This document shows, piece by piece, positions 17,001 to 59,400 of a DNA stretch of 64,000 nucleotides. Source of the stretch: Rhea pennata (taxonomy: Eukaryota > Chordata > Aves > Rheiformes > Rheidae); contig NC_084677.1 in the NCBI RefSeq assembly GCF_028389875.1, forward strand, positions 9,156,017 through 9,220,016. The letters run 5' to 3'. The notes beneath the pieces were generated by a model, which was not told where the DNA came from, did no database searches, and saw only the letters and a list, made by a program, of their open reading frames with translations. The position numbers were made by a program, and so were the translations under genes. The stretch's first letter is position 1. Every line of letters begins with the position of its first letter.

Positions 17001-20000
17001 AAATTATGAGATGACCTTTTCTGTTTAATAAATATTGATTTCCTTTTTGTAAAGGAAATAATATACAAGGAGATATGAGCAGTTTCCAAAATACTCCTTT
17101 GTCAATTTGAGGATTATGTTATTCTACTTCTCTTATTGACATAGAATTCAAGCATCAGACTAGTGCTGTCATTTAAAATGTTAGTGTATTCAAACTCTTG
17201 AGAATAACTACAAATATTCAGTTGTGTCCAATACCTGGTCTAGGGGCTTGATAGGTCAGGGTGCTGTGAATATGAAACAAATTTGAAACAAAAGTGAATT
17301 TATTTGATCATGTTCTGTCACTTGTGTTTAAAGCTGTAAGAGAGAACACATATGAAAGACTGAACAATATTATATTTTCCAAATACTGCTCAGGAACAAA
17401 GGATACTCTTAAGTAGATCAAAAAGTGAAAAAAACTTTTCACACTATCTTTGCTACTTTACAGGTAGTCTCAATTTCATAGCTAACTTTTTTTTTTTTTT
17501 TTTAAGGAGAATTTAGTAATTGAAAATATGTGTTTAGAATTGCACTCTTTTAGCTACAGGTGAAGAATAGATATCTCTGGGCAATATAGCTCACTACATA
17601 TAGGCATAACCTTGAGTTTAAAGTTGGTATCAGTCGTGGAAATGGCTTAAGTTTGGCAATAATGATATAGTTAAAACTGAGCAGGAAAAAGATTTTTATG
17701 ATAACTAAATCTTCAAACTTAAATATAGTAAAAACTAGTACAGAACCAGAATATTTGAGTTGTTGAATTTTTTTGTAGGTACCTCTCATGGGCCTTAGAC
17801 ACAAACCAGGAAGAACGAGACAAAGGTAAAACAGTAGAAGTGGGCCGTGCCTATTTTGAAACTGAGAAGAAACACTTCACTATTCTAGACGCTCCTGGAC
17901 ATAAGAGTTTTGTTCCAAATATGATTGGTGGTGCTTCTCAGGCTGATCTTGCTGTGCTGGTAAGAACAAATCAGATTTTCTATCTCAGTCTCTCTCTTTC
18001 CTTTTACCTCCCTCCCTCACCTCCTTTTTCAAATCTTACAAAGTCTGGCAAGCTGAGTGGTTTTGGAGTTACTTGTTAACAACTTGATAAAATTGTTCAC
18101 AGTTGTCATGTGATTTTTATATATGTCAATGCAGAAACTGATGGGTAGCATTGAGGTTATGCCAGTGTGTTTTCCAAATCTTGTACCAATCTTGACTAAC
18201 CCAAAGTTATTTATTGAATAAGGCCCTACTGTTCATTATCTGTTCTTGTGTTGAGAGAATCATAGAACTCTTTTTAAATGTGTATTTTTAATTAGGTTAT
18301 TTCTGCAAGAAAAGGAGAATTTGAAACTGGATTTGAAAAAGGTGGACAAACAAGAGAACATGCCATGTTAGCAAAAACAGCAGGTGTAAAACATTTAATA
18401 GTTCTTATTAATAAAATGGATGATCCAACCGTAAACTGGAGTAATGAACGGTGAGTTTAATTTTTAAAAACAACTTTGTTAAAAGATATTGAACTAAAGT
18501 AAGACTAAACGAAAGTGACTATATGCCAAAGTCATTCCTGATAAAAGAATAGTGAGCTAAGGATAGAAGTTATCAAAATTGTGGGAGAAACAGAAGTATA
18601 GTCTCTTAGAACAATGCATCTTGACTAAGCTTTTATTTCTACATTGCTTTAAAACACTGACTGCCAAAAGACATAGCATTTCTCTTCTTGGCTCTGTGCA
18701 GCCATATCTAAAAAATGCATGCATTCTAACATAGCTTAATTGTTGACTTGGAAAGTTTGAATGTACTGAAACTGAAAGGAAGTGACTCTTGTCAGCAGTT
18801 TAGCTTGCCAAATTCTTGATAACTTGGCCATGTTCCTGCTAAGCTCCTAGCTTAGGTTTAGCGAGAATAGCATTATCTTGCTCACTGTATATGTGTCTAC
18901 TCTGTATTATTTGCAGTTGTTCTCTCGTGATAAGCTGAAATGAATAAGCGAATAATATATTAAGTGATTCTTGATTGCATTTGGGTTGCGGGGGTGAGGA
19001 GGGAGTAGGAGTCTTGCCCTGGTACAGGCCCAGTAAAAATAACTATATACTTAGAAGTATAGATAACTAGAATAAAAAGAATTGAGCTTTTCTTTTTCTG
19101 TCTTCATACTCGATGTTACTTAAGGGCTTTAACTTTCCTAGGTGTCAGAATTCATGTCTTGATGTCTTGTTTAGCTTCTCTCTCATCTTTCTTCTTCCTT
19201 TAAGCTGCATGCTAAAAAGCATGTTTCAGTCCTTCTCTGGAAATATTTGTGTAGTGAAGGGATACAGTTTTTCTTTCTACAGTAATTACAAGAGATTTTT
19301 GTTTAAGTGGGGAATATTCTGTGTATGTACAGTGTATGAACATTGTATTAGAATGCATATATTCTGTCTTTAATTATCCCCAAAGTGACCTGTAGCTGCA
19401 GAGTGTTATGTGCCTCAGCCTGGGGCAGGGAGCAGAGATGCAATAAAAGAGGAAATAGGTCAGCACCTCAGTGGAAAGACAGATATTGGTCTCTGTTTGT
19501 TAGACACTATTCTGGAGAGGATCTACCTCATTAGGTTTGTGCCATTCTTAAATCAGATCTTAGTCCCAAACTGCAGATGTGGTATGAATACATAGTCATC
19601 TTGACTATCAAAATACATGGTTCTCAGCCAAATCCGTGGTGACTTCTCCCTCACAGAGAACTTACTGCATTGTCAAGAATCATGAAAGATTTTGAGGAAA
19701 GCTATGAGAGATTGTGCAACCTCAAAACATCAGCCTTGTTTCCTAAGAGAGTAAGGCATGCTGAATTATGCTGTCTTAGTCCAGCCCTAATCTTCCCCAA
19801 GCTTTTGAACATTGTGAAATTCAGTTACAACTGGCTAAGGGGGAAAGTCTAATAGAAATAAATATATTTAAGTTTTATGAAATTGTATGGAAGACTGAGA
19901 GAGACCAAGCCATCATTAAAGTGGAAGCAAGACTTAAGTAGTTGTCTGCTTGGTTTGTCCTGCTATCTTGGCCTGTATCTCTAGTCTAAAAGCCACTATA

Positions 20001-23000
20001 GTATATGCTGCTTCTTGCCCAGCCTAGTATTCAGTGTACATGGGGGGAGGGGAATGATGATGTCTTACAGGGTGGAGGAATGAGGGGAATTGACAGTATT
20101 AAGTTGTGCTGGAAGACTAGGGAGAAGACTCAAATAAGCCACCAGACTTTACTACACATTTATCACAGAGTAATTTAACTGATGAAAATTAATTTTTTTT
20201 ATTAATTTAAAAAGTGTTATGTCATACTAAAATAATTTAAATCCATCTTGATTCATTTGTTGTTTTTATAGATACGAGGAATGTAAAGAAAAACTGGTGC
20301 CATTTTTGAAGAAAGTTGGCTTTAATCCCAAAAAAGATATTCATTTCATGCCCTGCTCAGGATTGACTGGAGCAAATCTTAAAGAACAGTCAGAATTCTG
20401 TCCTTGGTATATGTATGTATCCAAAATCAACAACTTGGATAATAGTTATATTTCAATAAAAGTCAGTGCTATAGTGAAGTTATGAAGAAGTACAGCTTGG
20501 TGTGCTGTAGCTGTATTCAAGAAGTATTGGCTAAGGTACTTGAGGAAGTATGATCAGCACAACAGGAACACAGAACTCTGTAATAAGCCAAATAAAAGCA
20601 TTTAGTAGCTGCAGAAGATGAGTTGCCAGACTCTATAGAAAGTGTTAGCAGTATTCGTTAATTTTTGGCTTGTGAGATTGAATGCCAGCACTCTAATTTT
20701 TCAGTGATGCTGCATTAGGTATGTTGGAGGGAAGAATAATTTGATCTGGAGTGTTTGCTTGAAGCCATATTATAATAAGCTACAAGCCATGTCTCCATTC
20801 TTATCATATTTTCAGTATGGTTCATGGGAGCTAAAACATTAATGAAAATCATATTTGGAACCATATGATTTGGCACTTCCAAAACATAATAAGCATATCT
20901 AGCAAGATTTCTAAGGGATAGTGATTTTGTGTTCATTATGCCTGTGACATAGCTTAAAAGCTACATGTGCTTCCTGAGTATTACCATGATAGCTAAGGGA
21001 ATGTGAATGCTAATGATGGGGTATTAAGACAGACTTAACTGTATTTAGCATTTTTAGTAATAAGAAGGGTGTTCACATAACTAAAATGAATGCCTTTTGC
21101 TGTTTTAGTGGATTACCATTTATTCCATACCTGGATAATTTGCCAAACTTCAACCGTTCAGTTGATGGACCAATCAGGCTGCCAATTGTGGATAAGTATA
21201 AGGTACAAATCCAAAATAATGGGATTCAAATGATAAATGGATTGTTTTCAAAAAGCAGTAAATGGACTATATTTCACTACATTCCTTCCCCCTGCCCCCC
21301 CCCCTTTTGATATGGTGGGCAATTGTTGTCTACATTTTTGAACTGTGGAATGGAGAAAGAAGTAAACCACTTCAGTATTATATGAGACTCTAAAATAATT
21401 TTTTGTGAGAACAGCTTCCAAAACATTAAATGTAGCAGCACTAAATAACTTCATAGAGTTAAATGACCATGTTTAGAATTAAATAGTAAATAGAACAGAC
21501 TTTAGAAAAATGTCTTTTATGTTTTTTTTAATGAAGGATATGGGTACTGTGGTCCTTGGAAAGCTGGAATCAGGCTCTATTTGCAAAGGACAACAGCTTG
21601 TGATGATGCCAAACAAGGTATAGTAAGGTTTACATATTTTAAAAGTATGACTCTACTGGAAAACAGCTTGATTCTTAAAGAAATTAGTCTAAATCAAAAT
21701 ATTTCAGTGGCTCAGTTGAGCAGAGCTGTACTTCTGTGTTTTACATGGGTGATGTTTCTGAGTGTATATACACATACATACCTGTATGTATATATACACA
21801 TGCATGTGTGCGCACAAGAGAGAGTGTATCTCCTTACTAAACTCAATTACTTAGTGATCAGTCCTGACAATTTTTGAACTATGTTTTGCTTTGCATTTGT
21901 ACAGTTGGCCCTAGAACCTTTTGTGCTGCTTTTTGTGGGTTAGTATTGCTCAAAACTTTTTTTTTCACACAAAAAGAAATGGGAAAAATTAAAAGGATAC
22001 AGACAGTACAGTGCATTACAATAGTTTTTATTATTTGCTTTGGTAGTTAATAAGGTGGGAAGTAAGACTTCAGGAAGTTGGAATAATGACCATCTTTCTG
22101 AAATTACCCCTCTTTAAATTCTCTGCTATTCCAATTTTTATTTCTTGTTGGTATCTAGTAATGAGGCTGTATAACAATGTATTTTGCATTCTCCTTGGTA
22201 GATAATAGGCATTTATTCTCACATCTCTTTATAAAATGTTTAAAGTGACTTTACTTTAAAGATAGTGGATACGTTTTGAATTTGCTGTTCATTGAACAGG
22301 TTATAGAATTCTGTGAATTCAAATCTGTTGAACAAATATGCTATGTTATATTCTGAAAAATCAGAAGTTCCATTACATTTTTCAAATGCTTTACATGTCA
22401 TGAAGCTTGTAGAACTGAGTATATGAATTTAAGCTATAATAGATTTAAGTATTGAAATCATGTATTAAAGTGATTTTGGTACAGACTGAATTATTCATAC
22501 TAGAAAACTTCACTTTTGCTTCCTTTAAGCACAATGTGGAAGTTCTTGGAATCCTTTCTGATGATGTAGAAACCGATTCAGTAGCCCCAGGTGAAAATCT
22601 AAAGATCCGACTGAAGGGAATTGAAGAGGAAGAGATCCTTCCAGGATTTATACTCTGTGATCCCAACAACCTGTGTCATTCTGGACGCACATTTGATGCC
22701 CAGGTAGAATAATTAACTTTTAATTGCTATATAAGTGGGTAAACAACTGTAAAATATTTTACCTGTGTTTCAACAAATCTAAATTTCAGTAGCTTTACTT
22801 TTCAGTTCAGATTTTTGACTCGCTATTATATCTCCAGGTTGATAATAACATACATACTTCTGACTCTGGAGTCAGAAATATGAGTTCTAAAAGTATCCAT
22901 CACTTATTATGAATGTAACCTCTACATTAAGTTTTAGACACCTATAATCTTGAAAGCAAGGTCTTTTCTGGCCAATTCTTCCATTTCATACTTTATAATA

Positions 23001-31080: not shown

Positions 31081-32110
31081 GAGACTGGCTTGGCTGAACA
31101 GGGAACTCGTGACAGTGCCCCGGGGCGAAGTGGCGGCGTGCAGGAGGCGAACGCAGGGTCAGGCCGCGACGGAGCAATCTAGAAACGTTGCCGAGGCAGG
31201 CTGGGACGGCGTTAGGAGGCTCACGGCTCGCCCCGAGTGGAGACTGGCCGGGGACGGCAAGGGCAGCAAGAGCGTCCGCGGCTTCAGCAGCAGCGAAGGG
31301 CTGGCAGGGGAAAACCCGACGGCTGCTCAGCGCGGCAGGCGAGCTGAGGTGCTCAGAGCCCTCCCGGCCGCGGGCTTCATCGGGAAGAGCCCCCAGCCGC
31401 TGTGCTCGGGCAGCGGAGAGGAGCCGCCAGCGGCGAGGGCAGACCCCGCCCGCGGCCGCTCGCGAGGACGCAGCGCGGCGGGCGCGGCCCCGCCCCGCGC
31501 CGGGCCCGGAAGGCGGCGGCGCGCAGGCGCGGGGCGGCACGTGGCGGCGGCGCCATGGCGGGCAGGGAGCAGCGGCTGGAGCGAGCGCAGGTACCGCGCG
31601 GGGCGGGCCGGGCCGGGCCGGGCGAGACCGGACCGGACCCGGCCCGACCCGACCCGCCGCTCCCCGCGGGGTGCTGTCCTCCTAGGTGCGGAAGGCGGTG
31701 CAGGCCCTGCTGGCGTTCGCGCGGAGCGGGGCGACGCGGCTGCTGGGCGAGGGCGAGAGCGTGTTCCTGGTGGTGACGGTGTGGAAGATCCCGCGGGCGC
31801 CGCGTCTCGTCACGCTGTGAGAGCCGGGCGGGCGGGCGGGCGGCGGCGGGGCCCGGCCCGGCCCGGCCCCTTCCGAGGGCCCGGCCGCCACCCGGCCGCC
31901 CGCAGCCTCCCCGCACTGCTCTTGCAGGCCGCTGCCGCACGGCATCCGGGGCGACGCCGCCGAGGTCTGCCTCTTCACCAGGGACGAGCCGGGCCTGTCC
32001 GCAGAGCAGACGGAGAGCGCGTACAAGAAGCTGCTGGCGCAGAACGGCGTCTCCAGCGTCAGCCAGGTGGGCGCTGCTGCCGCGCCGCCGCCTGCCAGCC
32101 GCAGGGGAAG
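31080..32110. promoter_or_regulatory. CpG island / promoter of RSL1D1
   Basis: GC content rises abruptly from AT-rich flanks and CpG is frequent across the first three RSL1D1 exons. A palindromic E-box CACGTG sits at 31538-31543, twelve bases before the start codon. CCGGG/CCGAC-type short repeats fill intron 1 (about 31600-31670) and GGGC/GGCC repeats fill intron 2 (about 31825-31870). No TATA box is apparent, as expected for a housekeeping CpG promoter. Confidence 0.75.
31538..31543. promoter_or_regulatory. E-box CACGTG (MYC/MAX or USF type)
   Basis: Perfect CACGTG in the RSL1D1 CpG island immediately before the start codon. Ribosome-biogenesis genes are commonly MYC targets through this element. 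That it binds MYC here is inference. Confidence 0.45.
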
Positions 32111-32172
32111 GCAGCCCGCTTTACTCCTCTTTCCTCTTCTCTTTTTTTCCTTTTTGCTCGCGCGCTCTCTCT

Positions 32173-32206
<34 letters not shown>

Positions 32207-35200
32207 GCCTTCCTGCCCCACTCTTGAATATCTCTCATTCTGTGTTAATGATCGCTGATCATTTTTCTGAAAATTAAAACTGCTTTTTTTTCCACTAAAC
32301 TTAATAATTTACTTGTAGTAATTTCTTCAGTTCAAAGCTGAATCTTTAATAGATGTGTTTGCTAGATACAATGGTTCAGTATTTAATGTGAATAAACCAA
32401 CAATTTAAAAAACCCACGATGTGAAATCCCCAGGACCTCTGTTGCATTGTTTATGCTGTTGGCAGAAAAATTGGAAAAATCTTGCTGTTATTATATTTGC
32501 TTTGTTTAGATGTTACCACGTGCTGCAGTTTTATTTGGTGCTATGCAGTTATTATGTAAGAGATCCATATTGTTTGACTCTTAAATAAAAAGAACAGTAT
32601 CCTTTTTCACTTAGTCATCTTCAGTGCTCAAAAATAAGGAGGACAAAATAACATATCTTGATAGACTAGCAATTATACAAGTTACTTCTGTGCAGTTATA
32701 AAAAGTATTCTAGGCTGTTTTCAGCAATTTAGATTAACCTGTTGCACGCATTGCAGATCATCTCATACAAAACTCTGAGAAAAGAATATAAACCGTTTGA
32801 AGCAAAACGTCGTCTCCTGAACAGGTTTGATCTCTTTCTGTCTGATGACCGAATTAGAAGACTGTTGCCCTCGCATCTAGGAAAACACTTCTATCGAAGT
32901 AAAAAGTAGGTCTTTAACTTTTGTGCGAGTGCTTTGCGGTAACTTATAAAACTGAGTCTTTGTAAAGTGTTTTTCCTCTCCCTCCTCTTTGTTCCTTAGG
33001 GTACCTTTATCTGTAAACCTGAAAGCCAGCAATCTTGCTAAGGAACTGCATAAACATATCCAGGGAACCGTACTCCCAGTTACCAACAAAGGTTGCTGTT
33101 AGTAAGTACAAGTCAAAATTCCTACAGTACTATAGTCCAAGTGAAGTATTGAGTTATTTATATTCTAGTAATATATGAATAAAAGAGGTTAAGAGTCACC
33201 ATTCTAGATGTAGGCCATTTTGAATCATAATGTCTAATATATATAAAAATTCTTCTTAATGAGAAGTCTTACTGTGGGGTATCACTTATCTTTTTTTTTT
33301 TTTTCTTGATAGCTTAGGAATTTTTAGGCGAATTTCTAGGCACTATCAAACAGGATATACAATCTTTAGAAATATTACTGTTAAATTAGATAAAAACTGC
33401 TTCCGAAATCTATTCTTCTAAGACTTTTTTGTTTGTCTTGCATCTAAGTCCATCTAAATCTGCAACATGCTTGGTAATATAAGGTATAAGCTACATATCC
33501 AAACACAAAAAGGTTAATGTAATATGAGTAAATTCATTGTGACTTACTACAGAAGATTACTGCAGTGGCAAACCATCCATTAAGATAATTGCAGATAAGT
33601 GGGTTTTTCATTTCTGGATATACCTAAGAACAAGTCAATTGATAATTGATTAGAAGTGGGTGGGTTTTTTTTTTAACCTGTTCATAAACACTATTCTTTC
33701 CTGCTTTCAGTACAGCACGTATAGGTCACACTGGAATGAAAGCTGATGAGATATTGGAAAATGTCGTTGCTGCAGTTGAGGTGATTGCAAAGAAGTTACC
33801 AAAGGTACTGCTGACCAGTTGTGCTGAATTATGAAACTTCTTGGCTTCAGCTTTGTTATTTTATATAATATACCATTTTTGTTGTTGCAGAATTGGAAAA
33901 ACGTAAAAATTCTTCACCTCAAAACAGCTAAATCAGTTGCTCTTCCAATTTTTACTGCACAAATCTCCAACTTAGATGAGCTTGACAAAGAGCCATCTGT
34001 CGATAAACAGGAAGAGGTAAAAAAAAAAAATTCTTTCCACTAAGCCATAAAACCCTACGGAACAACTTGTTCTTTAGGTAGTGTTTATGCATTATAGTAT
34101 CTAATATGTTGGTTTTGAATGTGTTGGCAGTGGATCCCAGGCATGTGTGGCTACAAATGGATTAGATACTCCTGGGCACTTGCTTCAGTATCATGAAATC
34201 ATGGAAACTCCCTGATAGGTTGTAAAGCAAACTGGAAATAGAGTGGTAGCAGGCTGTTCTCTTAAGTTATAAGCTTCTACCCTTTAACTGTAGGGATCTG
34301 ATATTTCTTCTCAGAACTTTTTGCTTGAATTTAATGCTTATTTTCACATTTCCCATCCAAAAATACATTCATTAACATATATGCACAGATTAAGACTATG
34401 CATCCATTACTCATCAGCTAATCAGTGGCATCTGAATAATCCACAAGCTCAAATATTTACATCTTACTTTAGTGTTTTTTCACCTATTTTTTTTAATATC
34501 ACCTGTTCCTTGGCACAGAAACATCATACAAAAAACTGCACAAAATAAATTGGGAGCATATGTATTCAACTTACAGGCTGTAATCCTGACATTATCATTG
34601 TGCATTTATGTGGTATTTATAAGGAACTCTTCTCACTTAGACAGTTACGCATTTTTTGTTTGTTTGTTTTATATATGATTGACCAGTCAGGTCTCTAGAA
34701 CAACAATATTTACATTGACATTGCTAGAATGTCTTATGTTTTAACCATACTAAGACAGATCACTATATATGTAGAAGTACTGTGGGTATATGTTTGAGAT
34801 AAACTTGCAATTAATTTCAGAAAAAAAGGGAAAAGAAACCGAAGAAAGCAGGTAAAAAACTGACTTCAAGTGAAGTTGCTGTGACAACTGAAATTAATGC
34901 TACTGCTGCTAAGGAAGAGCAGGAGATGAAAGAAAAAGCAGAAGTAGTCCAAGAACCAGATGATGATGATGATGGAGAAATTCCACAGCTAGTGCCTATT
35001 CAAAAACCAACCAGTGTAGCTGAGCTGAAGGTAATTGTTTAATTGTTTGTTAATATTGAGAAACTTACACTATGGTTAAAAATGAACATCTAGAACTGAT
35101 TAAACTCCTTAGAGAACAGTATGTTTCAACATACTTCAAGTGAAATGGTATTGTTTCTTCTTTCTTTATTTTTCTTTATTTTTTTGTAAAATATCATGAA

Positions 35201-36690
35201 AGCAAAGATTTGAGTATAGGTGAGAGGGGATACCTTGGGAACTTTTCTATTAACCCCTCTTCTAGACAGAAGAAGCTAGTACTTACTGTTCTTCACTTTC
35301 AAATAGTGGCAGTTCTGTCAGCTAAAATGGCAGGTTTGAAGTCAAAAGTAGGAAAAAAAAAGATTGAGAAACAGCTTGATAATTAAATTGAATGTTTGTT
35401 TAATTTTTAAATTAAAAACTGCTTGTAGGTATTAATTCTAATGTAATTTAATGTATCTTCTGCCTGGACTGCAAAACTTCAGGAAAAACAGCACATTCTG
35501 TAGCCTAGTAGCATGCAGTATTAATAATCACAAAATATAAACTGAAAGCTGACAGCTTTTGTGAAATACTCTACAGTTGTATTGTTATCAGTATTGGAGA
35601 TGTGGATCATGTGACTAACATGACTACTAAATCGTATTCATGTCTAACAACATCCTAGTTGAAACAAAATAGATGAATAAAACAATAACACTTCTAAATT
35701 CAGTTTAGTTCATGATTGGATCATACCCTTGAACTCTGTGTCCATTCAGGAATGTCCAGTCTACAGCCATGAATATGTGCAATCCACCAAGGAAATTGAA
35801 ATAGCTTGTTTCAAGCTGTTGTTGTGTGGTAGGCCTAGGTTAGCTCATGTGATGAGGTATGATTTCAACTCCAGCTTTATCAGCTCTGGCATTGAATGAA
35901 TTGATCTGTTGACAACAAACTGCTCTCATGGGAGGCTCTTGGGAATATGTGTCAGCTTCTAGGGAGTACTAGGCTTAGTGCACAGTCAGTTTATATCTTG
36001 ACAGATTGGCTCTACTTAAAGTCCAGCTCTGCTGAATCTAGTAAGCCCAGACATGTAGCAAGAAATGGACTGTGGTATAAAGCTCTGCCAGCAGATTAGC
36101 TCAGTGACCTGGCTGGCCAAACAGGTGGATGTTCATGTATCAGTTAAATCTATTTAATGTCTTACATTGCTACATGCAATATTGCATGTAGCAGTTTTTC
36201 ATGACTGGTGTGTTAATTCTGCACTTCCTGCCTGAAATGTGAACAGATTTGTGCTAGGGAATAGTCCAATTGATAGAAAGCACTTGTCATTTATGATAAT
36301 TTTCACTGATTTGTTTTATTGGAATAAAAGTAAAGATGCTTCTTATGTGGAAGGGTAATGGCTTTTTTGTCTCTTTAAATACAGAAAACAGAACCAAATC
36401 AGAGTCCAGAAAAAGGTGACAAGCTGGGCAAGAAAACCAAAACACGCCTTGGTAAGAGAAAAAGATCTCTACCTCAGGAGACTCAAAAAACAAAACATAA
36501 AGTTACTGAAGAGCAGGCAGTCTTGCAGATATCACAAAAACAAGCCAAGCAGTTCAGCATGCCAAAGGAGGCAATAAAGGAAAAAGAGCTGAGAAAGACT
36601 CCCAGAAAGCCTGAAGCGAAGTCTTTTGCAACACCTAAAGCTGGCAAAATAGTACAGTCATCCAAGAAATCTTCCAAAATGCAAAAATGA
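31555..36690 (+). CDS. RSL1D1: RSL1D1 (ribosomal L1 domain-containing protein 1), complete
   Basis: Nucleolar protein with a ribosomal-L1-like RNA-binding domain, linked in mammals to ribosome biogenesis and to control of cell growth and senescence. Nine exons, all in phase: 31555-31590, 31686-31816, 31928-32066, 32757-32905, 33000-33101, 33711-33804, 33891-34016, 34821-35030, 36385-36690 (stop TGA). The product is 430 residues, against 490 in human. The L1 domain covers roughly residues 13-259, with family features such as [14 protein letters not shown] and [15 protein letters not shown]. From about residue 260 the protein is lysine-rich and low in complexity, with an acidic [13 protein letters not shown] stretch shared with human. 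The start sits in a strong context (GCGCCATGG). It lacks about 30 N-terminal residues found in human, and the tail is also shorter. Confidence 0.95.
32175..32205. repeat. T31 homopolymer in RSL1D1 intron 3
   Basis: Uninterrupted T run at the downstream edge of the RSL1D1 CpG island, 109 bases after the donor of the third exon. Confidence 0.95.
36168..36193. repeat. 26-bp perfect palindrome in RSL1D1 intron 8
   Basis: Two 13-base arms, the left reading TGCTACATGCAAT, meet with no spacer and are exact reverse complements. The site lies about 190 bases before the last RSL1D1 exon. Confidence 0.85.
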
Positions 36691-40967: not shown

Positions 40968-42548
40968 CTGAAAAACACCAAAATTTAAATGAATTTAGAG
41001 GTGCACAAGCTACTTGAATCAGAGGCACAAAAAACACACACTGCGGAACTGAAAAATTACAGAATCACAGATTCACAGAAGTTTTACAGAATAAGCAAAC
41101 TGTTTTCTCCATGATTTATTTCAGACCTTCCTCAGAGTGAGAATAAAAGGCAGATTGTGATGTAAACCCCTAAAGATAAAAACCTTTCTTAATAAAACTT
41201 TACTCAAGTTCAGAGAGAAAAAAAAATCATAAAAGAAGACAATATTAGCCAACAATCTGTAAGCAGCTGAGTTCTGAAAAACCTATCCTATTTCCTGTTA
41301 AGGATATCCTGTACCGATAGTTTTGATGCCTATAAACTATCGAGTTAAATAAAATGTGGTAGAAGAAACACCAGAGAACGTGAAAACATTCAGCTTGATA
41401 GATGGTGTCAACTTTCTGTAATCCATGACCTTCCATTCCTGTCTATCATAATTTTATTTAATCAAGAAAAAGCAAGTCTGACTCAATAATCACCATTAGT
41501 TCCATGCTGACAGAAGATACTGTCTTGACCAAAAGTAATCGTATCACTTTCTAGTCTGGGATGTGTCTATTCCATAATAGCAGTGGATGGAAAAGTCACC
41601 TTCTGACTGCAAGCATGTTCTTGTTCTAATCATTCATGCTAAAATAAAATGTTTCTTAATTGTGGATGTGGATGTGCAGAAAATTCTGAAGATCATAAAG
41701 TCTGTATCAATAATCGATAGTGAAACATACTAGTTTGCAGGGACTGGAAAAAAACATTTTTCACATTGGAAAAATTAACAGGAACTGCCTTGGAACACAA
41801 TGTATACTTCTCTGGCAGCTTGAGCCAGTCCATGCCAGGACTGCAGTAGTCTTGCTTCTTCTTTCATACCAAAACTGGAATTCACACAGCTAGGTGGTTA
41901 GACATGTGAAGCAGCTGATCCAGCTACAAGCTAACCCATGGTGTGAGAAATATAGGGAGATTGCTATAGCCCAGTTTGTTCTTTTATGTTGCAGAGTACT
42001 CTGGACTCTGACAGTTAAATAAGTAAGATATGGAATTACTGGTGTGATTTCTTCTTCTTTTAAACAGTGTATTGTTTAGTTAAAAATTATTTAAAATTAA
42101 GAAAATCAGAGGGAAATAATTTGATATAAGTACTGCAGATCTTCAGTTAGAGTCATTTGCAGTAGTCACTTCTGCTTAGAAGCACCAAATTACCATTAAT
42201 GTTACAAAGAGTTATATTTCCCAGTTTTTCAACAAACTATATCCATTGAAAATCAGTGCTGAATGACGAAGGAGTTAAATTAAATTTGTTTATTCAGAAA
42301 ACTATTTCTTATTAATGTTTCTCATGCTTGTCTAAGAGAGTTAGGAAATCTTGTCATGTTGCTAATCAGGAAAGGAGGAAATAAGGAAAACTAACGTTCA
42401 TTCCAAATAAGTTGAAGCTATGTCTACTGCTGATGTGCTACAGAATCAAATCAGGTGTAAAACACAGTTGTTCCAATTTTGCTAATTCCAACTGGCCATC
42501 TGTAAGGACCAAACTACCACTTTATTTCCTTAATATAACTGTGGATTG

Positions 42549-42603
42549 AAAAGAAAAAAGAAAAAAGAAAAAAGAAAAAAGAAAAAAGAAAAGAAAAGAA
42601 AAG

Positions 42604-42634
<31 letters not shown>

Positions 42635-42665
42635 GAAAAGAAAAGAAAAGAAAAGAAAAGAAAAG
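42549..42665. repeat. A/G-only satellite: (GAAAAAA)n then (GAAAA)n
   Basis: About 117 bases with only A and G. The left third repeats a 7-mer GAAAAAA and the rest mostly GAAAA. The pentamer is the complement of the one at 5091-5444. Confidence 0.95.
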
Positions 42666-44671: not shown

Positions 44672-44716
44672 AAGTCTTCAGCTTGTGATTTTTGTAACGA
44701 CACATTTTGTGGAATA
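44672..44716 (+). other. 5' UTR portion of the PIRT-like coding exon, after a splice acceptor
   Basis: A T-rich tract followed by TTTCTTTCAG ends at 44671, giving a typical acceptor 45 bases before the presumed start codon at 44717. This implies at least one upstream non-coding exon, as is usual for genes with a single coding exon. Confidence 0.5.
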
Positions 44717-45094
44717 ATGTCTGTAATACAGGCAGCCCCTAATGAGGAAGTGGCTTCACCTGTTCTTGATTTTCCATCTTCTGTAAGAGTACAGATAAAT
44801 GAACCAAATCCCGTGACTAATGCTGAGAGTCTGTGGTGCTACTACAGCAAACCAGTTACACTCATCGTTGTTGGAGGAATGCTCGTCGTCAGCAGCATCA
44901 TCATTGGCACTCTCCACTTCACCAAATACCTGGACGTCCCACGCGCTCTTGGGCCTGTCTGTCTGTCCATTGGCCTGATGTTCCTAGTTACGGGAGTCGT
45001 GTGGATACCCATCGTTAACCAAACTGTTAGGTATAAAGGGCTCCTGAGGGCACGTGCAAGAAAACATACAGCTGCGTATAGTTCTTGCGCTTGA
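44717..45094 (+). CDS. PIRT-like two-pass membrane protein (phosphoinositide-interacting regulator of TRP channels family)
   Basis: Predicted 125-residue protein in a single coding exon. An acidic, proline-containing N-terminus is followed by two hydrophobic segments (about residues 46-66 and 78-100) and a short basic tail (RYKGLLRARARKH, about 105-117). The arrangement and the phrases KPVTLIVVGGM and GLMFLVTGVVWIPIV closely resemble PIRT as I recall it (KPIVIMSVGGA, GLMMLVCGLVWVPII). PIRT is a small sensory-neuron membrane protein that binds phosphoinositides through basic residues after its second membrane segment and modulates TRPV1 and TRPM8. The N-terminus does not resemble PIRT, so this is probably a paralogue. 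The start at MSVIQ is chosen because it follows the acceptor at 44671; the reading frame is open further upstream only through intron-like T-rich sequence. It lies 0.9 kb before a TMEM238-family gene on the same strand. Confidence 0.7.
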   Translation: MSVIQAAPNEEVASPVLDFPSSVRVQINEPNPVTNAESLWCYYSKPVTLIVVGGMLVVSSIIIGTLHFTKYLDVPRALGPVCLSIGLMFLVTGVVWIPIVNQTVRYKGLLRARARKHTAAYSSCA

Positions 45095-45480
45095 GGATTT
45101 GAAGTGTTTAACAGCAAAAAGTTACGTACCATAGCTGATATCCACGAGAATGGACTGAAGTGAAATATATCTTGCTTTTTATAGAGCTGTTTTACTTACT
45201 GGATTTTTCATCTTTGCACTTGTGTTTTCAACTGGTTTCCTTGTTAAATTGTTGAGCTGATGTGGGATTGTAAACACTTGTTTTGAGCCAATCTCTTCAA
45301 GAACGTACCTAGAGCTGCCCTGTGTGACTCTACAGGAGCACGTTATAACTGTCTTACGACCCTCTGCTGTCCCCGAGTAGCTGTTTTGACCGCTGGGTGG
45401 AGCGCTACGGCCCCTTGCGGGAGGGAGGCTGGATTTCGCTAAGCTGAGCTAAAAACCTCACCTCATTTAATCACCTGATG
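45095..45480 (+). other. 3' flank / probable 3' UTR of the PIRT-like gene
   Basis: Moderately AT-rich sequence after the stop, passing into the next CpG island by about 45.4 kb. I see no canonical AATAAA or ATTAAA before the TMEM238-like start, so the transcript end is unknown. Read-through into the next gene is possible. Confidence 0.35.
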
Positions 45481-45716
45481 CCTCCTCGGGGGCCCCTGTC
45501 ACACCGGGTCCAGCAGCGCATCGCGCTTGTCCGCACAAGCAAAGGGCGGTGCCTGCGAGGCACCGGGGGCACCCCGGACCCCTGCCCGCTCCTGTGAGGC
45601 GCAGGGAGCCGCAACCGCCAGCGGCCCTGGCGCGGCGAGGACAAGAGCGAGAGCCCCAGCGCGGGGCTGACGCGGCGCGAAGGCGGCGCTGCCCTTCGCC
45701 TCAGCGAACCGGCGCC

Positions 45717-45904
45717 GCGAGGCACCCGCGCGGCGGGGCGGGGCCCCGGGGGGGAGGCGGGAACGGCCCCGCGAGGCGCCGGGGGCGGGGCCGCGAGGCA
45801 CCTGCGGGGCGGGGCCTGGGGTCCGGGGGCGGGGCCTGGTGCGGGAACGGCCCCGCGAGGCACCTGCGCGGCGGGGCCTGGGGGGTGGGGGCGGGAGCGG
45901 CCCC
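45717..45904. repeat. GC-rich promoter minisatellite, about 3.5 units
   Basis: Units begin GCGAGGCACC(C/T)GCG and end GGAACGGCCCC or GGAGCGGCCCC. They start near 45717, 45771 (partial), 45792 and 45855 and vary from roughly 20 to 63 bases. Each carries one or more GGGGCGGGG boxes. A further half-match lies near 45555. Confidence 0.65.
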
Positions 45905-46001
45905 GCTCAGGTGCAGCGGCCCCGCGCACTTGCCGCCGCCGCCGCCTCCCGCGAGGTGCAGCCGGCGGCGCTGCCGCCGTCGCTGCTGCCGCCCCACGGC
46001 G

Positions 46002-46388
46002 ATGGCGGCCCCCGGCGGGCTGGGCCGCTGCGTCGCCGCCTTCTGGCTGGCGCTGGCCTTCGACGCGCTGGGGCTGGCGGTGCTGCTGGCGGGGGTGTTC
46101 GCCGACGTCTTCTTCTCCGACCTGCTCATCTACGGGGGCGGCATCGGCATCTTCCTGAGCCTCATCTGGTGGGTGTTCTGGTACGCGGGCAACCTGGAGG
46201 TGCCGCCGGAGGAGCTGCGCGACGACGTGGGGCTGGCGCCGCCCAAGGGCAGCCTGCTGCGCGGGCTGGTGCAGGGGCTCAGCCTCCGCCTCTCCTCCGC
46301 CTTCGCCAGGCCGCGCTCCCGCGCAGCCGCCGCCGACGTGGAGCTGCAGCCGGCCGCCGCCGCCCGCCCCGCCGCCGCCGCCAGGTGA
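46002..46388 (+). CDS. TMEM238-family two-pass membrane protein
   Basis: Predicted 128-residue protein. After a short N-terminus ([10 protein letters not shown]) come two hydrophobic segments (about residues 11-32 and 41-61). The second runs through the family-typical phrases [15 protein letters not shown] and [17 protein letters not shown]. Human TMEM238 and TMEM238L carry closely similar text (GLGRC, DLLIYSGA, FLSL, WYTGNIEIS) as I recall them. The rest is a basic, alanine-rich tail. No biochemical role is established for the family. The start is chosen for its position in the CpG island and the match of GLGRC to the family N-terminus; the frame is open about 450 bases further upstream only because GC-rich DNA lacks stops. 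The stop TGA (46386-46388) overlaps a consensus splice donor, so a longer spliced C-terminus is possible. It lies just downstream of the PIRT-like gene, same strand. Confidence 0.8.
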
Positions 46389-48361
46389 GGCCGGGGAGGG
46401 GCCTCGGGCCGCGCGGGGAGGCGGTGCGGGGGAGGTGGGGGAGAACCCCGGCTTTGCCTGGAGCCTGGCGGAAAAATCTTTCTCCCCTGCGGCTGGTGGT
46501 AGGTGAATGCGTTAAACCATTCACTCAGAGCAGGCGCTTCGGGAATCAAGCCAGATGAACCCCCCCCCCAAAAAAAAAAAAAAAGGGAGGGGGGATTTTC
46601 TTCTGCCTGGCAATATTGAAAATCGAGCCAGGGAAAGTGCCCCGAGCTGGGCGAGGCGGTTAAGGCGCTTCCCGAGGGCGAAGTGTCCCCGCGGGGCCTG
46701 CGAGGCTCTCCCGTCGGCGAGCTCCGTGGAGAGCGGGAAAACGGTGGCTTGGTTTTGCTCAGGAATGGTTAGAGCTGCTTAGAACTGTTCAGAACGTGTA
46801 AGTGCAAGCGATGGTTAAACCGGCTCCTGTTGCGAGCATCGGTCCCCCGAGAAAAGCGCGCTGCTGCCCCGTGAGCAGAGCCAGAGCTCGAGTCCGGCCT
46901 CAAAAAGTCTTTTAGAAATAGACCTGATGTGTTCATTAATGTATTTATTTGGGGAGGTTAGTGTGCTTAATGCCCTGAAAAAGGCAAGAAAAAAAAAACA
47001 TACAAAACCAAGCTTGCCATTCATTATATAAAATATTCTGAAGGAACTAGTTCAGCCAAGGTAGGTTTTATATCTGAACTAGTCCAGAACACTGAACATC
47101 TTACAGTTCTGGCTCACTGTGTACGAGGTTAGCCTTTTCTGCTGTTCTTTGAAACTAAATCTTGAAGCAGTTGTGGCTCACAGGAAAGTTCTTGTGAAAA
47201 TCATCATAGTTTTTTTTCTTTTTTTTTTCTTTTTTTTTTTGTGTGGAAGTTGCGGAATTCTCTTGAGAAGAAATTCTAACAGTAAAGAAATACTAAACAG
47301 GTACCTATTGCTTAATAGAAAATCTGTTGAAGGGGGAAAAGGAGCAGCAGCAAGATAGCTTTAAAAGATTAGTTACTAGTATTTAATTTATTATTGACTC
47401 TAATAGCAATTTGAAAACTGGCTATTGATAATGTGTCATTCTCCTCCCAGACTTTTTTAATTTATTTTTTTCCTGAAATAGGTTTACAATTTGACAGAGA
47501 GAGATCAATATTTTCAGGATAGTAAAGACATAAATGACCCTGCCTAACTTCCTTTATCTTAAGGTTATGACAATTAGAGGAAATTAATAGGTAAGGTGCT
47601 ATACTTGCAGATGGTCCTAGTCTCAATACAGATGTATATTTTGCTATAGTAAACTCTTAGTGTTGAAAGTTATCCTTTTTATTTTTAAATCTTTCACATC
47701 TTAAACATTACTGTTTTCATTTAGAAATAATCTTTTTTTAAAAAAATCCTATAAAAGCAGATACATTAATTGCTTTGTAACAAGTTCTCTCATGTAAACA
47801 TCATCTGCAATGAAGAGGCTTTGGTATAATTGCGTTAGCAATTGTAACTCAAAACAAACAAAACCAGAGCGTATGAGAGTCATATTACAACAGGTAACAT
47901 GAACTCTTTTTTTTTTTTTTTTTTTGTTTTTTAATTTTTCAAGGTAAAATAAAGGGTAACAAATGGTTGTATTTCCAAAGCTAATTCAGAGTTATGAAAG
48001 AACCCTTTGAAATAAGTTCATTGGTATTTGGCATCTCATAAATAAGTATCTGAACTGGAACATCCTTTACTGATAGACTAAATGATCTCCCCATCTGGGG
48101 ATATTTATGAACTCAATCAACTGGGCTAAAAATGTATGGACAGATGCTGTATGGAGGAAATCTTAAAACTTAAGGAACTACAACAGCACGTAAAAGTGAA
48201 GTGCAAATGCTGGGTACATGAAGTTTTTTCCTTAAGAATGCTGTTCTTTACAGAAATTATTTCTGTATTTTTTTGTCACTTAGATAATTTGGTGATTCTT
48301 GTCATTTCATTAATAACTTTCAAAATTAGCAATGCTACATGGTGTTCTGATTTCCTATCTT

Positions 48362-52839: not shown

Positions 52840-53440
52840 TCTGCGCCGGTATCTACCTAGGCTGCGCTGAGCCGCAGCATCGCCGTGGAAAGCGGGTCGC
52901 GCCCGTGCGGTTTGCGCGGGGGGCGCCGCGCCGCGCCTCGCCCGCTCGGTCCGCCCGCAGCAGCGATGCCCAGGCTAGAGCAGCGGCGGCCCTTCCAGCC
53001 GTGCCTCTCTATGGTGCGGGGGGGGCGGAGCAACGGCCATTTCCGGGTAGGCGAGCGCCCTTTCCGCCCGGGGCCGGCATGGGCCCGCAGCGGCGGGCGG
53101 CGCGGGAGGGCCGCGGCGGGTGGCGCCGCCTACGCCGTTAGCCGGGCGGCCGCCGGCGCAAGGCAAGGCGGGGCGGTGGCGGGGCCGGGGGGTGGCTGCG
53201 GCCGTTGTTGAGAGGCGCTGCCGCCTTTCTTTCGTGGCCGGGGGTCGGGGCCGTGGGGGGCGCGGCCGGGCGGCGCGGCCGTTGAGGCCGGCGGCGGCGG
53301 CGGGCACTCACGGCGCGTGGCCTCTCCTCAGGCGCGGGCTCGTCGCCATGCTGGGAGGGGACGAGTTCATCAGCTCCCCGCCGAGGAAGACGGTGCGGTT
53401 CGGGGGCACCCTGACGGATATCCTGCTGAAGTACGAAAAG
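52840..53440. promoter_or_regulatory. CpG island / promoter of RRN3
   Basis: Abrupt GC- and CpG-rich block before and over the first coding exon of RRN3. It contains an exact GGGGGGCGG-type GC box near 53021-53028. A GGCCATTTCCGGGT stretch at 53035-53048 combines a YY1-like core (CCAT) with an ETS-like core (TTCCGG). No TATA box is seen. Confidence 0.7.
53035..53048. promoter_or_regulatory. Overlapping YY1-like and ETS-like sites
   Basis: GGCCATTTCCGGGT: on the opposite strand this reads ACCCGGAAATGGCC, joining a CCGGAA ETS core to an AAATGGCC YY1 core. Such pairs are common in CpG promoters of ribosome-biogenesis genes. Binding is inferred only. Confidence 0.35.
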
Positions 53441-56400
53441 GTGACTGTCACGGTCTTTCTCCATCGTAAATCGAGTTTGCAGCGCTTAATTTCTATGCGA
53501 AGGCTTAGTTTGATTAACATGGGGGGCGTCTGGTGACGTAGAAAAAGGAAGCTGAAGGTAGCTGAGTCCTTTGGGCATATACTGGGCTGCGTTGTTCTGT
53601 AGATTAAAGAAATTCCCCCATAACCTTATTTGGGTGACGCACTTGATGGCTGCAAAGTTCAAGTGATACCAAAGGATGCAAAATGATCACAATTGCTTTT
53701 ACAGGGAGACAGCTAAATTACCTGACAGCTAAAGCTGCCCTTCAGGGAGAGCCTTCTGCTACTGCTACTTTTGCTTGACTTGAGCTTTCTTACTGATTTG
53801 TATCACTGCTAAACAGTATCGGCTTGTTTAGATATGCTGATGAAACTTGTATTTTCGTGGCAGAAATATATGATCGTGGTTTGTGTTTTGTATTCTTTTC
53901 CCCTATTAGGGTGAAACCACTGATTTTGAGTTGTTAAAGCATCAGCTGTCAGATCCGGACATAAAGGTAAGAGTTTCTGTAGTGAAGAGTGTGATGACTT
54001 AAATGTTAGTTTTTGATCTGAATATAATCATTGGGAAAGTGATTCTGGTGTTTAAAGCTTAAACTGCTTAAACTAAGAGCAAAAGAAAAGAAAATAAAGA
54101 TTCTCTGAGTGCCATCTCTTTTAAATATATTCTGTGTAAGTCAGGTTTGCATCCCTTGCCCAGCCTTTAATGTAACTCTTTAACTTAACAGGCAGGCTCT
54201 TGGTTTGAAAGTTGCTGTGCATTTATTCTTGCATTGAACAACTTTCACTGGGGAGGGTAGAAACTTAGTCCAAGAAATTCCCAGCATGTTAATGTGAAAA
54301 TAATTTCTATTTACAGTGTCAGTCATTGCTTTGTCATTTTAAAGGTTTTGTTATTTTCTAGTAATAGGTCATATTATTTTTTGAAATTGTTACTTGTTTT
54401 TTCTGCTTATGTTAAGGATGCTCAGATCATTAACTGGCTGCATGAATTCCGAGCTTCTGTTGCATACTTGACCAAAGACTTTGAACAATTGGTCAGCATT
54501 CTGCTGGTAAATATCTGTCTGTTATATGCAAAGATGAAGAGTTTAGTATTCAAAATCTCTGTGATTGACATCTTGCTCTTTACTTACTTTCAGAAGCTGC
54601 CATGGTTGAGCAGAAGCCGAGATGTAGTTGAAGAATATCTGGGTTTTCTTGGCAATCTAGTGTCAGCACAAACGGTCCATCTTAGGCCATGCCTCCGCAT
54701 GATTGTGTCACAGTTTGTTCCTCGTAAGTAACTTTTTTTAAAAAAATTCTTTATTTGCTTATCAAAATGTGTCTTTCTAGATAATTCTGTATAAATATAA
54801 TGCATGCCAGAATTAATCTGGTATTTTTTTTCTATTGATTCGTTTCTTCACTTGAATAACTGAGGTAAAATACAATCCATTTTATGTGGCTTACATTTCA
54901 GAAAGCATTTTCTAGTGGATGATACAGTCAGATACCATTTCTATGTGTTTTGATTTGGCACTGAGAGTTTTACCTATAAGATTTGTATGATTTGGCAATA
55001 ATAATCTCTCTTTTTGCTAGCTCGGATAACAATCAGAGAAGATGATGTGGATATTTCAGATTCTGATGATGATGAAGAAAGTGAGTATAAAGGAAGTGTG
55101 AGTTGTATATGTTATTGTAAGCTCTTCAGTAACAAGTGCAGTGCGCATGTTGGTCTATTTTTACAGAATTTAGCTGAGTTACTGTTTCTTTACAGAGATT
55201 TTACATTAAGTTCTTAAATTATCAAGTCAGAGGATTTCTTGAATTTTTTGAAATTAAGTTTCTTGAATCAATGGTGTGGTGACTTGATCTGTTTTTCTTT
55301 TAAATGCTACTGTTGGTACAATATCTGTAGAAACAAAAAAAATGCATAGGAGAGCATTCCCAAGCCATAGCTTGTTTAAAAAAAAAAAAAAAACATAAAA
55401 ACAAAATTAGTTTTTTTGTTCTCATTTTATTTACCTAGATCCTGTTTTTAGGATCATGTTGGTTGTTCTTTAGATTCTTGGATCTTTTGTTGTTTGCCTG
55501 CAGTCAGCTCAAATCCAATTGCTATCAGTAACCAAAATGCTACATGATTAGTTTGTTTATTGAGTAGGCCACAAGATAGCCTTTCTTTGTCTTGCACACT
55601 GGAATAAATCTCAGTTTTGCGTGTGATGAGTGAGCCACAATTCAAGTGTTTACTGTGGCTATGCTTGGATGAACCAAACCTCCCTTCCCCCATCCAAAAA
55701 ACAAACAAACAAACAAAAACAAACAAACACACACACTGCTGTATTATTATATTAGTCTGATTAGTTGTTTGTTGCCTGCTGGGAAAATGAGACGTGATCT
55801 TTCAATATATTTTGGCTAGTTTAAGACTCTGCTATAATATCTTCTCACTATTTTTGTATTGTGGTCTAAATTTGGGATTTCCATATTTAACACTTAGTGT
55901 GAGAGAGTATAGCAACAATACCTGGCTTTGGTGGTAGCAGCAGATTCAGAGTTTGTTAATTGTAATACTGTGAGTTTTGTTTAGAATTACTGTTCACAAT
56001 AATTTTGGTAGTAAAGCAGTTCGACTCCAAAAACTAGTTTTGGCAAGTGTGATTTCCTTGGAAATCTTTAGAATGCTTAGTTGATATGAACTATTTTTTC
56101 TTGTTCCTGAATTAGTACTCTACATTCAACTTGTTAAGAGTACTTCTTCTTTTTCTAGACCTTTCTGAAAACTTTAATACATGCCATAGAGCATTGCAAA
56201 CTGTAGCAAGATATGTTCCTTCGTAAGTATATAATTTCATAATTTTGTCTGGCCTTTTCTTGCATATTTAAAGCTTGTGTAACAGTGAATTAATTTTTCT
56301 TCTGCTAATTGGAAGTGTAATAGTTTCATGGCACTTTTTCCTATTATTCAGTAACTGGAATGTTGTGTCCTATCATTTTGAAATTTGCGTAGACTTCAGA

Positions 56401-59400
56401 GTCTGAAAATCTTGTTAATTTTAATGGAAATAGGAAGTAGGGAAAACGATGTTCATAGCAGCATGTTTGAAGTAGCTTCCAAGAATTCAACAGTGAAAGT
56501 TTGCTGCTCATCATTTGTTCTGCTGTACTGTGAGAACAGATCTTGTGTAGTTAATTGTCTTAAAATGAAAAAAACATTTTGTGAAATAAGCTTATTCCAG
56601 TCTCTCTTTGTAGAGCTGGAGCTTAGATATTTGCTCTCATGATGACACTTTAACTACTTTTTTATTGCAGAACACCACAGTTTCTTATGCCAATACTTGT
56701 GGAAAACTTTCCTTTCATAAATAAATCGGAAAGAACTTTGGTAAGAACAATGATTTTTTTTTTTTTTATGTATAAAAATATTCCATAGCATGGTAATTGG
56801 TTTGGCAATTGAACACAAATGTTTGAGTGCATTGTTTAAGAATCTTCTCATAGCATTTTTATGTATACATACATACATACATGTCTTTGTGTGTCTGTTT
56901 AGTATGAAGGTTGTCCAAGCATACTTGAATTCCTTGTGCATATGCATTGTGCTAGTCTTTAATGACATAACTGCATATCTTTTCCACAGGATTGCTTTCT
57001 TAATCAATGCACAAGATGGACCTCTTTGACGCTGAATCTCAGGGTTGTATAGTAAGGAGACGGTAGGATACCTGTCTCATTTGTTGTAAAAATTGGAAAG
57101 TATGTAGCAAATGAACAGGGGATTTGATAAGCAAACAAAGCAGTGGATATTACAGCTGAAAACCAGTTTGCCAGCAGTATACATCTCTGCCCTGATGCCT
57201 CTGTGTGGTGAAAAGTAATCTGACAGCTTTTCAGAGGTCACTGCTCATCTGCAATCTTTATTTTTGTGCTTTCCAATCTGATATCTGGGCACTTTCTTTA
57301 CAGAAGGGCAGATCCCTGCTGCAGCAGTTTATGTCAATTGGAGCTGTGTTTTGAAATTACCACGTGCTGAAAAAACTCAAAATTGTTTGTATTTCTTGCT
57401 AGATATTTTTTGTTTTACATAAGAAACTTTAAGTGTCAGATCCCTATCTGTAAAGTGAGGCTGATAATAGTTATTACCAAGTCTTATGAGAATGATTTGA
57501 TTTAATTTTTGAAACATTTCAGTGAGGAGCACATTGTGAAGAAATTAATAATTGTCTTGAGACTGAGGTTTGAGTGGAGTGTAATTAAAATATGGTCCAT
57601 GCATTATTGGTAAATATTTTCAATTTACAGAGTCTCGTGAATTAGTCCTTCTCATCTTATGCTCTAAAGTGCAGAAGAGGGCCTGTGGAAAAATCATATG
57701 TATTATATAATTAAAGGTTGTGTTATAATGCATATTCACAAAGAGACTACAGCATACTTAAATGTGGCACTAATTACCTTTACCTAATCTAGCTACTCTA
57801 ACTAAACTTGTCAGTTTTGCTCTATGCAAGTTGCAGTGTTTTGTTTTGTATCTTATGTGTGTATGGGAACGTGCACGCTCATATAACTTGCCTGTTAACC
57901 TGTCTGAAATGTATGCAGAACTCTGGGAAGACTTGTGTGTGGAATTTGGGATTGTTCTTGAATTGGCTTAATATAATAAAAGTAAAGAGGTATTCAGTCT
58001 CATTTTAAACAGTTCTATTAGATCTGTGTCTAGACATAGTAAAGAATAGGCATATGGCTTTCATTTTTTCTAGAGAAAGGTTAGGCGAACTCCTATGGAA
58101 ATTAATATTTAACCTTTCTGAGTTTACACTCATTCTGTTTAAAGATATTTTGAAAAATTAGCATGGAAATTGTAGATTAGAAGTTAATGGTAACACAGTT
58201 TAACAATTAAAAGTTAGTGTTTTGATTACCCATTAACTTACTCTAGGTTGAATGCAGTCTTATTTCCAGCTATTTTTAGAACTTTAGATTAAGAAACTTA
58301 TTTAAAAAAAAATCTTTGGCAAGAATGAAACTTCCAGTTAACAGTACTATAGACAGTTCTTTTAATTTTGTGTTACAGGAATGCTATGTTCATAACTTGC
58401 TACGAATTACAGTATACCTTCCAACACTGAGGCTTGAAATTCTGGAACTTATTGTTGAAAGGCTGTTAAAGCTGGATGTAAGTTTATTTTGTGTCATCTT
58501 TTAAGAAAGTTTTGTGTTAAAGTGCAGAAACTCAAAAAATAGAGACAGAGAAACTCTTGAGTATTCAGCTCAACAGAAATTATATTCCAACGGTGCACAT
58601 AATCGTAAGCTATGCATATTACCACAGCTGAGGATAACAGTGTGATATGTAATGTTAGTCACTGCATGGAAATTCCATGCCAGAATCAAAATAATCTTTT
58701 TGTGGTTATCAGTGCCAAGATGTGGAGAACATGCTACTCTTTGCACAATTGATCTCTTTTACTGTTGCCTTATAATGAAAGGATTTGTATTCTTAAAAAC
58801 ACAGAAGGGGAAGCATTGCAAATTATTAATGCTCTTTATTTTGGAGAACCTCCGCATATATCAATCTGTTTTGTGTGGGGCAAAGCTAATCTTCTGCAAG
58901 TAAAGTTCTGAAAAGTCAGTGTGTGTTCGTATGTATATATCAATCGTTATATTAATGTGCATTTAATCATGGATAACATATAGCTAGAAGTTAGGAGTAT
59001 TATGATTTCTTGTGTAACTAACAAAGCAAGGTTTATAAAATTTAATTTCTTTGTTGCAACTGTAGGTTAGCACTCCACAGCAAGATATTGAAGATGCTGA
59101 AGAAACTGCTAATAATTCTGATAGTGAAGAAAAATCTACAGAGAAGGGACTGTTTGACATGGTGGGCTATCTTGTTCTAATAAAAACTTGATAGAAATTT
59201 TTGTGTTTTAGGTGACTGTGAACTATAAAATAGGATAGCATAGGAATATATTATTACTTTGTATTTACTGGACTGTAAACGTATAAAACCCAGATCTTCA
59301 AACTTGAACAGCTGATAAATGGCTAATCTGTTCTTTGGGTGTTGATTTATTCATGTAATTCTGAGCATGCGTGCATGCTATGGAACAGTTTCCTTATGTA

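Follow-up and report, generated by a model that had tools for sequence, protein, structure and literature searches.

A second PIRT-TMEM238-type gene tandem in Rhea pennata and its probable origin in an ancient block duplication

Work on PIRT has treated it as a one-copy gene whose product tunes the sensory-neuron channels TRPV1 and TRPM8. In the genome of Rhea pennata a gene resembling it (hereinafter gene A) is followed by a TMEM238-type gene (gene B) in the interval between RSL1D1 and RRN3, which raises the question of whether this tandem is PIRT and TMEM238L themselves, relocated by a rearrangement, or a second copy of the pair, and, if so, of what origin and age. The window, i.e. the whole stretch of 64,000 nucleotides that was analyzed, corresponds to C15:9156017-9220016 (C15 being contig NC_084677.1), and positions given without a contig prefix refer to it. 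Genome-wide searches were conducted against the organism's own assembly (1,268,942,789 bases, 180 contigs).

The gene pair and its immediate neighborhood

The two genes lie head-to-tail on the forward strand, 0.9 kb apart from stop to start, and both the open reading frames and the hydropathy peaks agree with their initial description as small two-pass membrane protein genes. The ORF of gene A (44717..45094, +) is intact over its 125 codons, and the 125-residue product has two hydrophobic segments (residues 47-65 and 81-99) and a basic tail (101-125). The whole coding sequence is contained in a single, probably last, exon (44672..45094, +), of which 44672-44716 would be 5' UTR. An acceptor-like site immediately 5' of 44672, 45 bp before the ATG, is the sole one in the preceding 400 bp; by the crude criterion used, such sites number 95 per 64 kb on the forward strand of the window, so that this one is only supporting evidence, weak by itself. 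Gene B (46002..46388, +; 128 residues, one exon) has hydrophobic segments at 16-34 and 41-59 followed by a long C-terminal tail, and is contained in a CpG-island stretch (45400..46800, not assigned to a strand) with a G+C content of 0.61-0.78 and a CpG observed/expected ratio of 0.81-0.93. The part of this island 5' of gene B includes a tandem repeat (45710-45878; period 76, 2.1 copies).

The genes on either side were recognized through Pfam and PDB matches on the forward strand, and these bear out the placement of the pair between RSL1D1 and RRN3, with GSPT1 nearby. Exons of GSPT1 (eRF3a) occupy 12308..20482 (+; extent partial), with a GTP_EFTU match at 17759-18076 and a PDB match to eRF3a (1.1e-36) at 17759-18010; those of RSL1D1, upstream of the pair, occupy 31686..36687 (+; extent set by eye), with Ribosomal_L1 at 32733-32906 (1.6e-13); and those of RRN3, downstream of the pair, occupy 53051..58501 (+; start set by eye, the gene continuing beyond), with RRN3 family matches at 54261-54728 (8e-9) and 58280-58501 (6.9e-8). 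Five of the 10 fragments scanned from these neighbors matched a Pfam family. A further Ribosomal_L1 match in RSL1D1 (33688-33831) is below the cut-off, and no Pfam match was obtained for the GSPT1 fragments at 12308 and 20252, which were assigned by eye, the RSL1D1 fragments at 31821 and 34815, or the RRN3 fragment at 55005. Rfam models produced no match in the window at their gathering thresholds. The window also contains a perfect TTTCT array at 5089-5444 (71 copies, 100% match) and a less perfect GAAAA array at 42548-42665.

Family membership and copies elsewhere in the genome

Gene A belongs to the PIRT family and gene B to the TMEM238 family. The Pfam PIRT profile (PF15099) matches gene A with an E-value of 2e-12 (47.4 bits, cut-off 30.6), aligning residues 35-103 with profile positions 38-108 of 128; three further Pfam families were returned, each under its own cut-off, and there was no PDB match at E 1. 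Its two hydropathy peaks predict the pair of transmembrane segments characteristic of the PIRT family. For gene B the match to PF15125 is stronger (6.1e-27, 94.1 bits, cut-off 27) and spans the entire domain (profile 1-64 of 64), one further family being returned under its own cut-off.

Genome-wide, the PIRT family has two matches (16 of 16 candidates scored) and the TMEM238 family three (10 of 10 scored), and gene A used as the query likewise retrieves just two, namely itself and a gene on C19 (2 of 2 scored). The latter is canonical PIRT (C19:11289211, +; 132 residues), with 249 bits against the 46.5 of the window copy, and has, like gene A, a single acceptor-like site in the 400 bp examined, in its case 24 bp before the ATG. 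By the same crude criterion, none of the three TMEM238-type genes has such a site within the 400 bp 5' of its start codon. Downstream of canonical PIRT, on the same strand, are two TMEM238-type genes: a middle gene (C19:11297090-11297533, +; 148 residues, G+C-rich), situated between PIRT and the last of the three, and a TMEM238L-type gene (C19:11305725, +; 75 residues). Canonical PIRT in this genome thus has two TMEM238-type neighbors rather than one, a minor correction to the initial description. The order and strand of genes A and B on C15 are as on C19. In 14 prokaryote genomes used as controls there was no match for PIRT, Shisa_N, myosin head or NUDE_C, whereas TMEM238, tektin and SAP each gave a sub-cut-off match in a single genome.

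These copies bear directly on the first alternative, in which genes A and B would be PIRT and TMEM238L themselves, relocated by rearrangement with no other copy in the genome. Both families are indeed recognizable at the window and adjacent to each other, as this reading would have it. However, gene A is not the best PIRT copy of the genome: that is the C19 gene, which has a SHISA gene 252 kb away, and the C19 copies, including the 75-residue TMEM238L-type gene, sit beside SHISA, NUDE and myosin genes. The rearrangement is thus already refuted in the organism's own genome, and we regard it as extremely improbable. The separate pair next to a SHISA gene, for which the first-pass annotation had proposed to look, is therefore present on C19, where it consists of canonical PIRT and not one but two genes of the TMEM238 type.

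The relationship of gene A to canonical PIRT was further assessed by direct comparison. As the pairwise blastp involved two or three sequences and lacked composition correction, identities alone are quoted in place of E-values: gene A and the C19 PIRT share 40% over 67 residues, mostly in the hairpin and the residues adjoining it. Whichever of the two proteins is shuffled, their alignment score of 135 is reached by none of 2000 randomized sequences (z = 11.2 and 9.9), where each shuffle preserves the residue class at every position (n = 2000 per test). The low identity and its concentration in and next to the hairpin might suggest that gene A resembles PIRT merely through both being short two-pass membrane proteins; yet the shuffles retain precisely that class pattern, the PIRT profile alone exceeds its cut-off among the families returned, gene A finds PIRT and nothing else genome-wide, and the gene order matches, so that a chance likeness of this kind has hardly any probability left. 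Consistent with this, the cross-family comparisons of PIRT-type with TMEM238-type proteins carry no signal, the observed score being reached by 178 and 638 of 2000 shuffles.

At the codon level, identity between gene A and the C19 PIRT at positions 1/2/3 is 54/71/34% in the core (56 codons), 34/41/34% in the N-terminus (44 codons) and 33/38/10% in the tail (21 codons). Judged from the sequences, the pattern in the core is that of old coding sequence under constraint, and it is hardly visible in the N-terminus and tail.

Gene B is 44% identical over 66 residues to the TMEM238L-type gene and 35% identical over 126 residues, tail included, to the middle gene. In the core the two are nearly equidistant (27/61 and 25/61 identities, respectively), and the long tail of gene B aligns with that of the middle gene. 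None of 2000 shuffles reaches the score in any of the three tests (z = 12.6 and 12.5 for the TMEM238L-type gene, 18.8 for the middle gene), and third-codon-position identity is 36% with the TMEM238L-type gene and 51% with the middle gene, where both sequences are G+C-rich. Gene B differs from the TMEM238L-type gene in possessing the long tail and from the middle gene in lacking its 5-residue insertion. Human TMEM238 presumably has an insertion and a tail resembling those of the middle gene. With TMEM238 and TMEM238L (FORCP) gene B shares the whole 64-position domain and the two hydrophobic segments, and by analogy with TMEM238L/FORCP its product is probably a two-pass protein of the ER or other endomembranes. 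FORCP/TMEM238L is reported to reside in the ER and to favor apoptosis when the ER is stressed (PMC7673786).

Colinear blocks and the origin of the second copy

The proposal of an ohnologous pair, made at first from the two genes and their neighbors, finds its main support in the wider gene order. Six families occur in the same order and on the same strands on C15 and C19: SAP (-), SHISA (-), PIRT (+), TMEM238 (+), NUDE (+) and myosin head (-). The SAP genes are at C15:8307263 and C19:10245121 (both -; among 18 matches, 48 of 48 candidates scored), the SHISA genes at C15:8875190 and C19:11036919 (both -; among 11 genome matches, 30 of 30 scored), and the myosin-head genes at C15:9414051-9443438 and C19:11414610-11464585 (both -; among at least 99 matches, 65 of 420 candidates scored). 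The NUDE_C genes, at C15:9383697 and C19:11362353 (both +), are the sole two matches of their family at E 0.001 (5 of 5 scored). Relative to the PIRT gene of each block, SHISA is 325 kb upstream on C15 and 252 kb upstream on C19, on the same relative strand in both; NUDE is 183 kb and 73 kb downstream, and myosin 213 kb and 125 kb downstream, respectively. A simple placement model gave small chance values but assumes even placement, and it is used here for the distances alone.

A third, partial block is found at C1:54736015-57583432, with SHISA at 54736015, SAP at 55454630 and myosin head at 57556321-57583432, all on the forward strand; the genome-wide family searches returned no PIRT or TMEM238 match in it. 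Tektin, tried as a seventh family (88 of 88 candidates scored, 31 matches), is present on both C15 and C19 but is not colinear, and it is left out of the argument. Myosin-head matches are also seen outside the blocks among the 65 of 420 candidates scored: on C19 they form a cluster at 9.81-10.08 Mb, and on C15 they lie at 15.9 and 16.7 Mb.

The families, their order and their strands fit the human 16p13/17p paralogon, with SHISA9, MRTFB, NDE1 and MYH11 on the one side and SHISA6, MYOCD, NDEL1 and MYH10 on the other. We take the SAP genes to be MRTFB on C15 and MYOCD on C19, the NUDE genes to be NDE1 and NDEL1, the myosin-head genes to be of the MYH11 type on C15 and the MYH10 type on C19, and the SHISA genes, classified by eye, to be of the SHISA9 and SHISA6 types, respectively. 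The C15 SHISA exon has a single PDB match, Shisa-3 (3.1e-7), which cannot separate SHISA9 from other members. The difference from the human arrangement is that the 16p13 side is not known to hold a PIRT or TMEM238 gene.

That the duplication is old is suggested by the DNA itself. The blastn comparison of the window with 120 kb of C19 gave three matches, all to one dispersed repeat near 49.9-50.1 kb, and in showing no similarity beyond this repeat it indicates that the duplication is not recent; a recent segmental duplication was accordingly ruled out. Masked ORF blastp of the window against the 120 kb around PIRT gave nine matches, one to PIRT and eight to the dispersed repeat; the TMEM238 pair was missed under masking, though the homology of gene B was found by the genome search and pairwise blastp. 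The repeat itself (49875-50076), by appearance presumably a CR1-type element, aligns at about 74-76% identity with three sites in the 120 kb around canonical PIRT.

An older segmental event, in which a PIRT-TMEM238 fragment was copied from C19 to C15 at some time after the vertebrate genome duplications, would account for PIRT being the sole gene matched in the masked ORF comparison of 64 kb with 120 kb, and for the lack of a larger shared stretch nearby. It would leave unexplained the duplicated SHISA, SAP, NUDE_C and myosin-head neighbors, which retain equal order and strand over more than 1 Mb, as well as the third partial block on C1; moreover, third codon positions are identical in just 34% of the PIRT core and DNA similarity is confined to a repeat. 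We consider such a copy quite unlikely. Rather, the window pair is very probably the second surviving copy, or ohnologue, of an ancestral PIRT-TMEM238 tandem, and goes back to an old block duplication. That ancient event would have copied an entire chromosome block, leaving two of equal gene order and strands, one of which would now be on C19, with canonical PIRT and its two TMEM238-type genes, and the other on C15, with the window pair. As the blocks are distributed over three contigs, a vertebrate genome duplication is the natural source, and from the block structure a paralogon of the vertebrate whole-genome duplication (2R) is the most likely one.

In human there is one known PIRT, on 17p with TMEM238L beside it, and TMEM238 is presumably in 19q13.42, near SHISA7. 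With SHISA7 in the same band, the move of TMEM238 to 19q that had been considered at the outset may be an unneeded assumption: human TMEM238 may instead belong to an additional block of this paralogon, situated on 19q. Human RSL1D1 and RRN3 are megabases apart on 16p13, which would put a rearrangement at the expected site of the pair. On these positions, the pair itself may have been lost in human. Among the literature matches listed, none dealt with a second PIRT; in automatic genome annotations gene A may well carry a name such as PIRT-like.

Divergence of gene A and what a second PIRT would mean

Gene A and PIRT share the two-pass hairpin, including a common stretch G-P-x-x-L-S-x-G-L-M-x-L-V-x-G-x-V-W-I-P-I, a one-exon coding sequence after an acceptor-like site, a basic tail and a co-directional TMEM238-type gene downstream; they differ in that gene A belongs to another chromosome block, retains 40% identity in the core only, and lacks the two regulatory motifs reported for PIRT. 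The polybasic amphipathic C-terminal helix of PIRT is described as binding PIP2 and the S1-S4 domain of TRPM8 (PMC6773951). Its C-terminal tail is described as binding calmodulin through a 1-14 motif, and a CaMKII site in the N-terminus, R36-S39, is reported to show 100% conservation (PMC7175203). The C19 PIRT has two overlapping matches to the calmodulin 1-14 motif in its tail and an N-terminal R-x-x-S at 34-37. A motif scan of the gene A tail found no 1-14 motif, and the N-terminal R-x-x-S is absent, the only R-x-x-S/T in the protein being R-x-x-T at 115-118 in the tail; a calmodulin 1-5-10 pattern is present at 100-109. The proposed retention of a basic tail therefore stands in part: the tail is still basic, with a net charge of +6 in 25 residues, but this compares with +9 in 23 for the C19 PIRT, and its maximal hydrophobic moment is 0.34 against 0.64. 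A CRAC (cholesterol-motif) pattern follows the first transmembrane segment of gene A (residues 66-76), and as the C19 PIRT has none, it carries little weight.

The stretch from the stop of gene A to the start of gene B (45094-46002) contains neither AATAAA nor ATTAAA, and the first such signal listed past gene B is at 47948, the coding stretch of gene B lying outside that listing. Transcripts of gene A may end at a variant poly(A) signal or continue into gene B. The absence of a canonical signal before gene B, together with the weak retention of motifs and the confinement of the codon pattern of constraint to the core, could also be taken to mean that gene A is decaying or is an ORF that is never expressed, leaving gene B as the sole working gene. 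Against this, the ORF is intact, with both hydrophobic segments and a constrained core, an acceptor-like site shortly precedes the ATG, a feature shared with canonical PIRT, and an unconstrained ORF would be unlikely to have remained open since an ancient duplication. We judge decay unlikely, and gene A is treated below as a putative working gene.

By analogy with PIRT, the gene A protein would be a two-pass membrane protein with both ends cytosolic, whose transmembrane hairpin bears the mark of old constraint while the N-terminus and tail have diverged. Its likeliest function would be that of a small ion-channel partner, anchored in the membrane by the hairpin and contacting voltage-sensor-like domains of channels as PIRT does, with a less basic tail that would bind acidic lipid weakly and escape calmodulin control of the PIRT type. 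This reconstruction, which extends the known properties of PIRT to its paralog, is offered tentatively, as a possibility falling somewhat short of even chances.

Further still, and as a speculation we ourselves hold to be doubtful, a second PIRT could have been kept by vertebrates and overlooked because the mammalian 16p13 region is rearranged at this very point. It would be expressed here as a calmodulin-free ion-channel regulator working beside canonical PIRT, and the known TRP regulator would then be a two-gene family with divided functions. A second ancient PIRT would change comparisons across species, since functions attributed to the one mammalian gene may be split over two genes elsewhere. 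With the calmodulin and CaMKII motifs naturally absent and the hairpin retained, gene A would also serve as a natural experiment for assigning functions to the parts of PIRT. As each PIRT has kept a TMEM238-type neighbor, one may also ask whether the two genes are regulated together.
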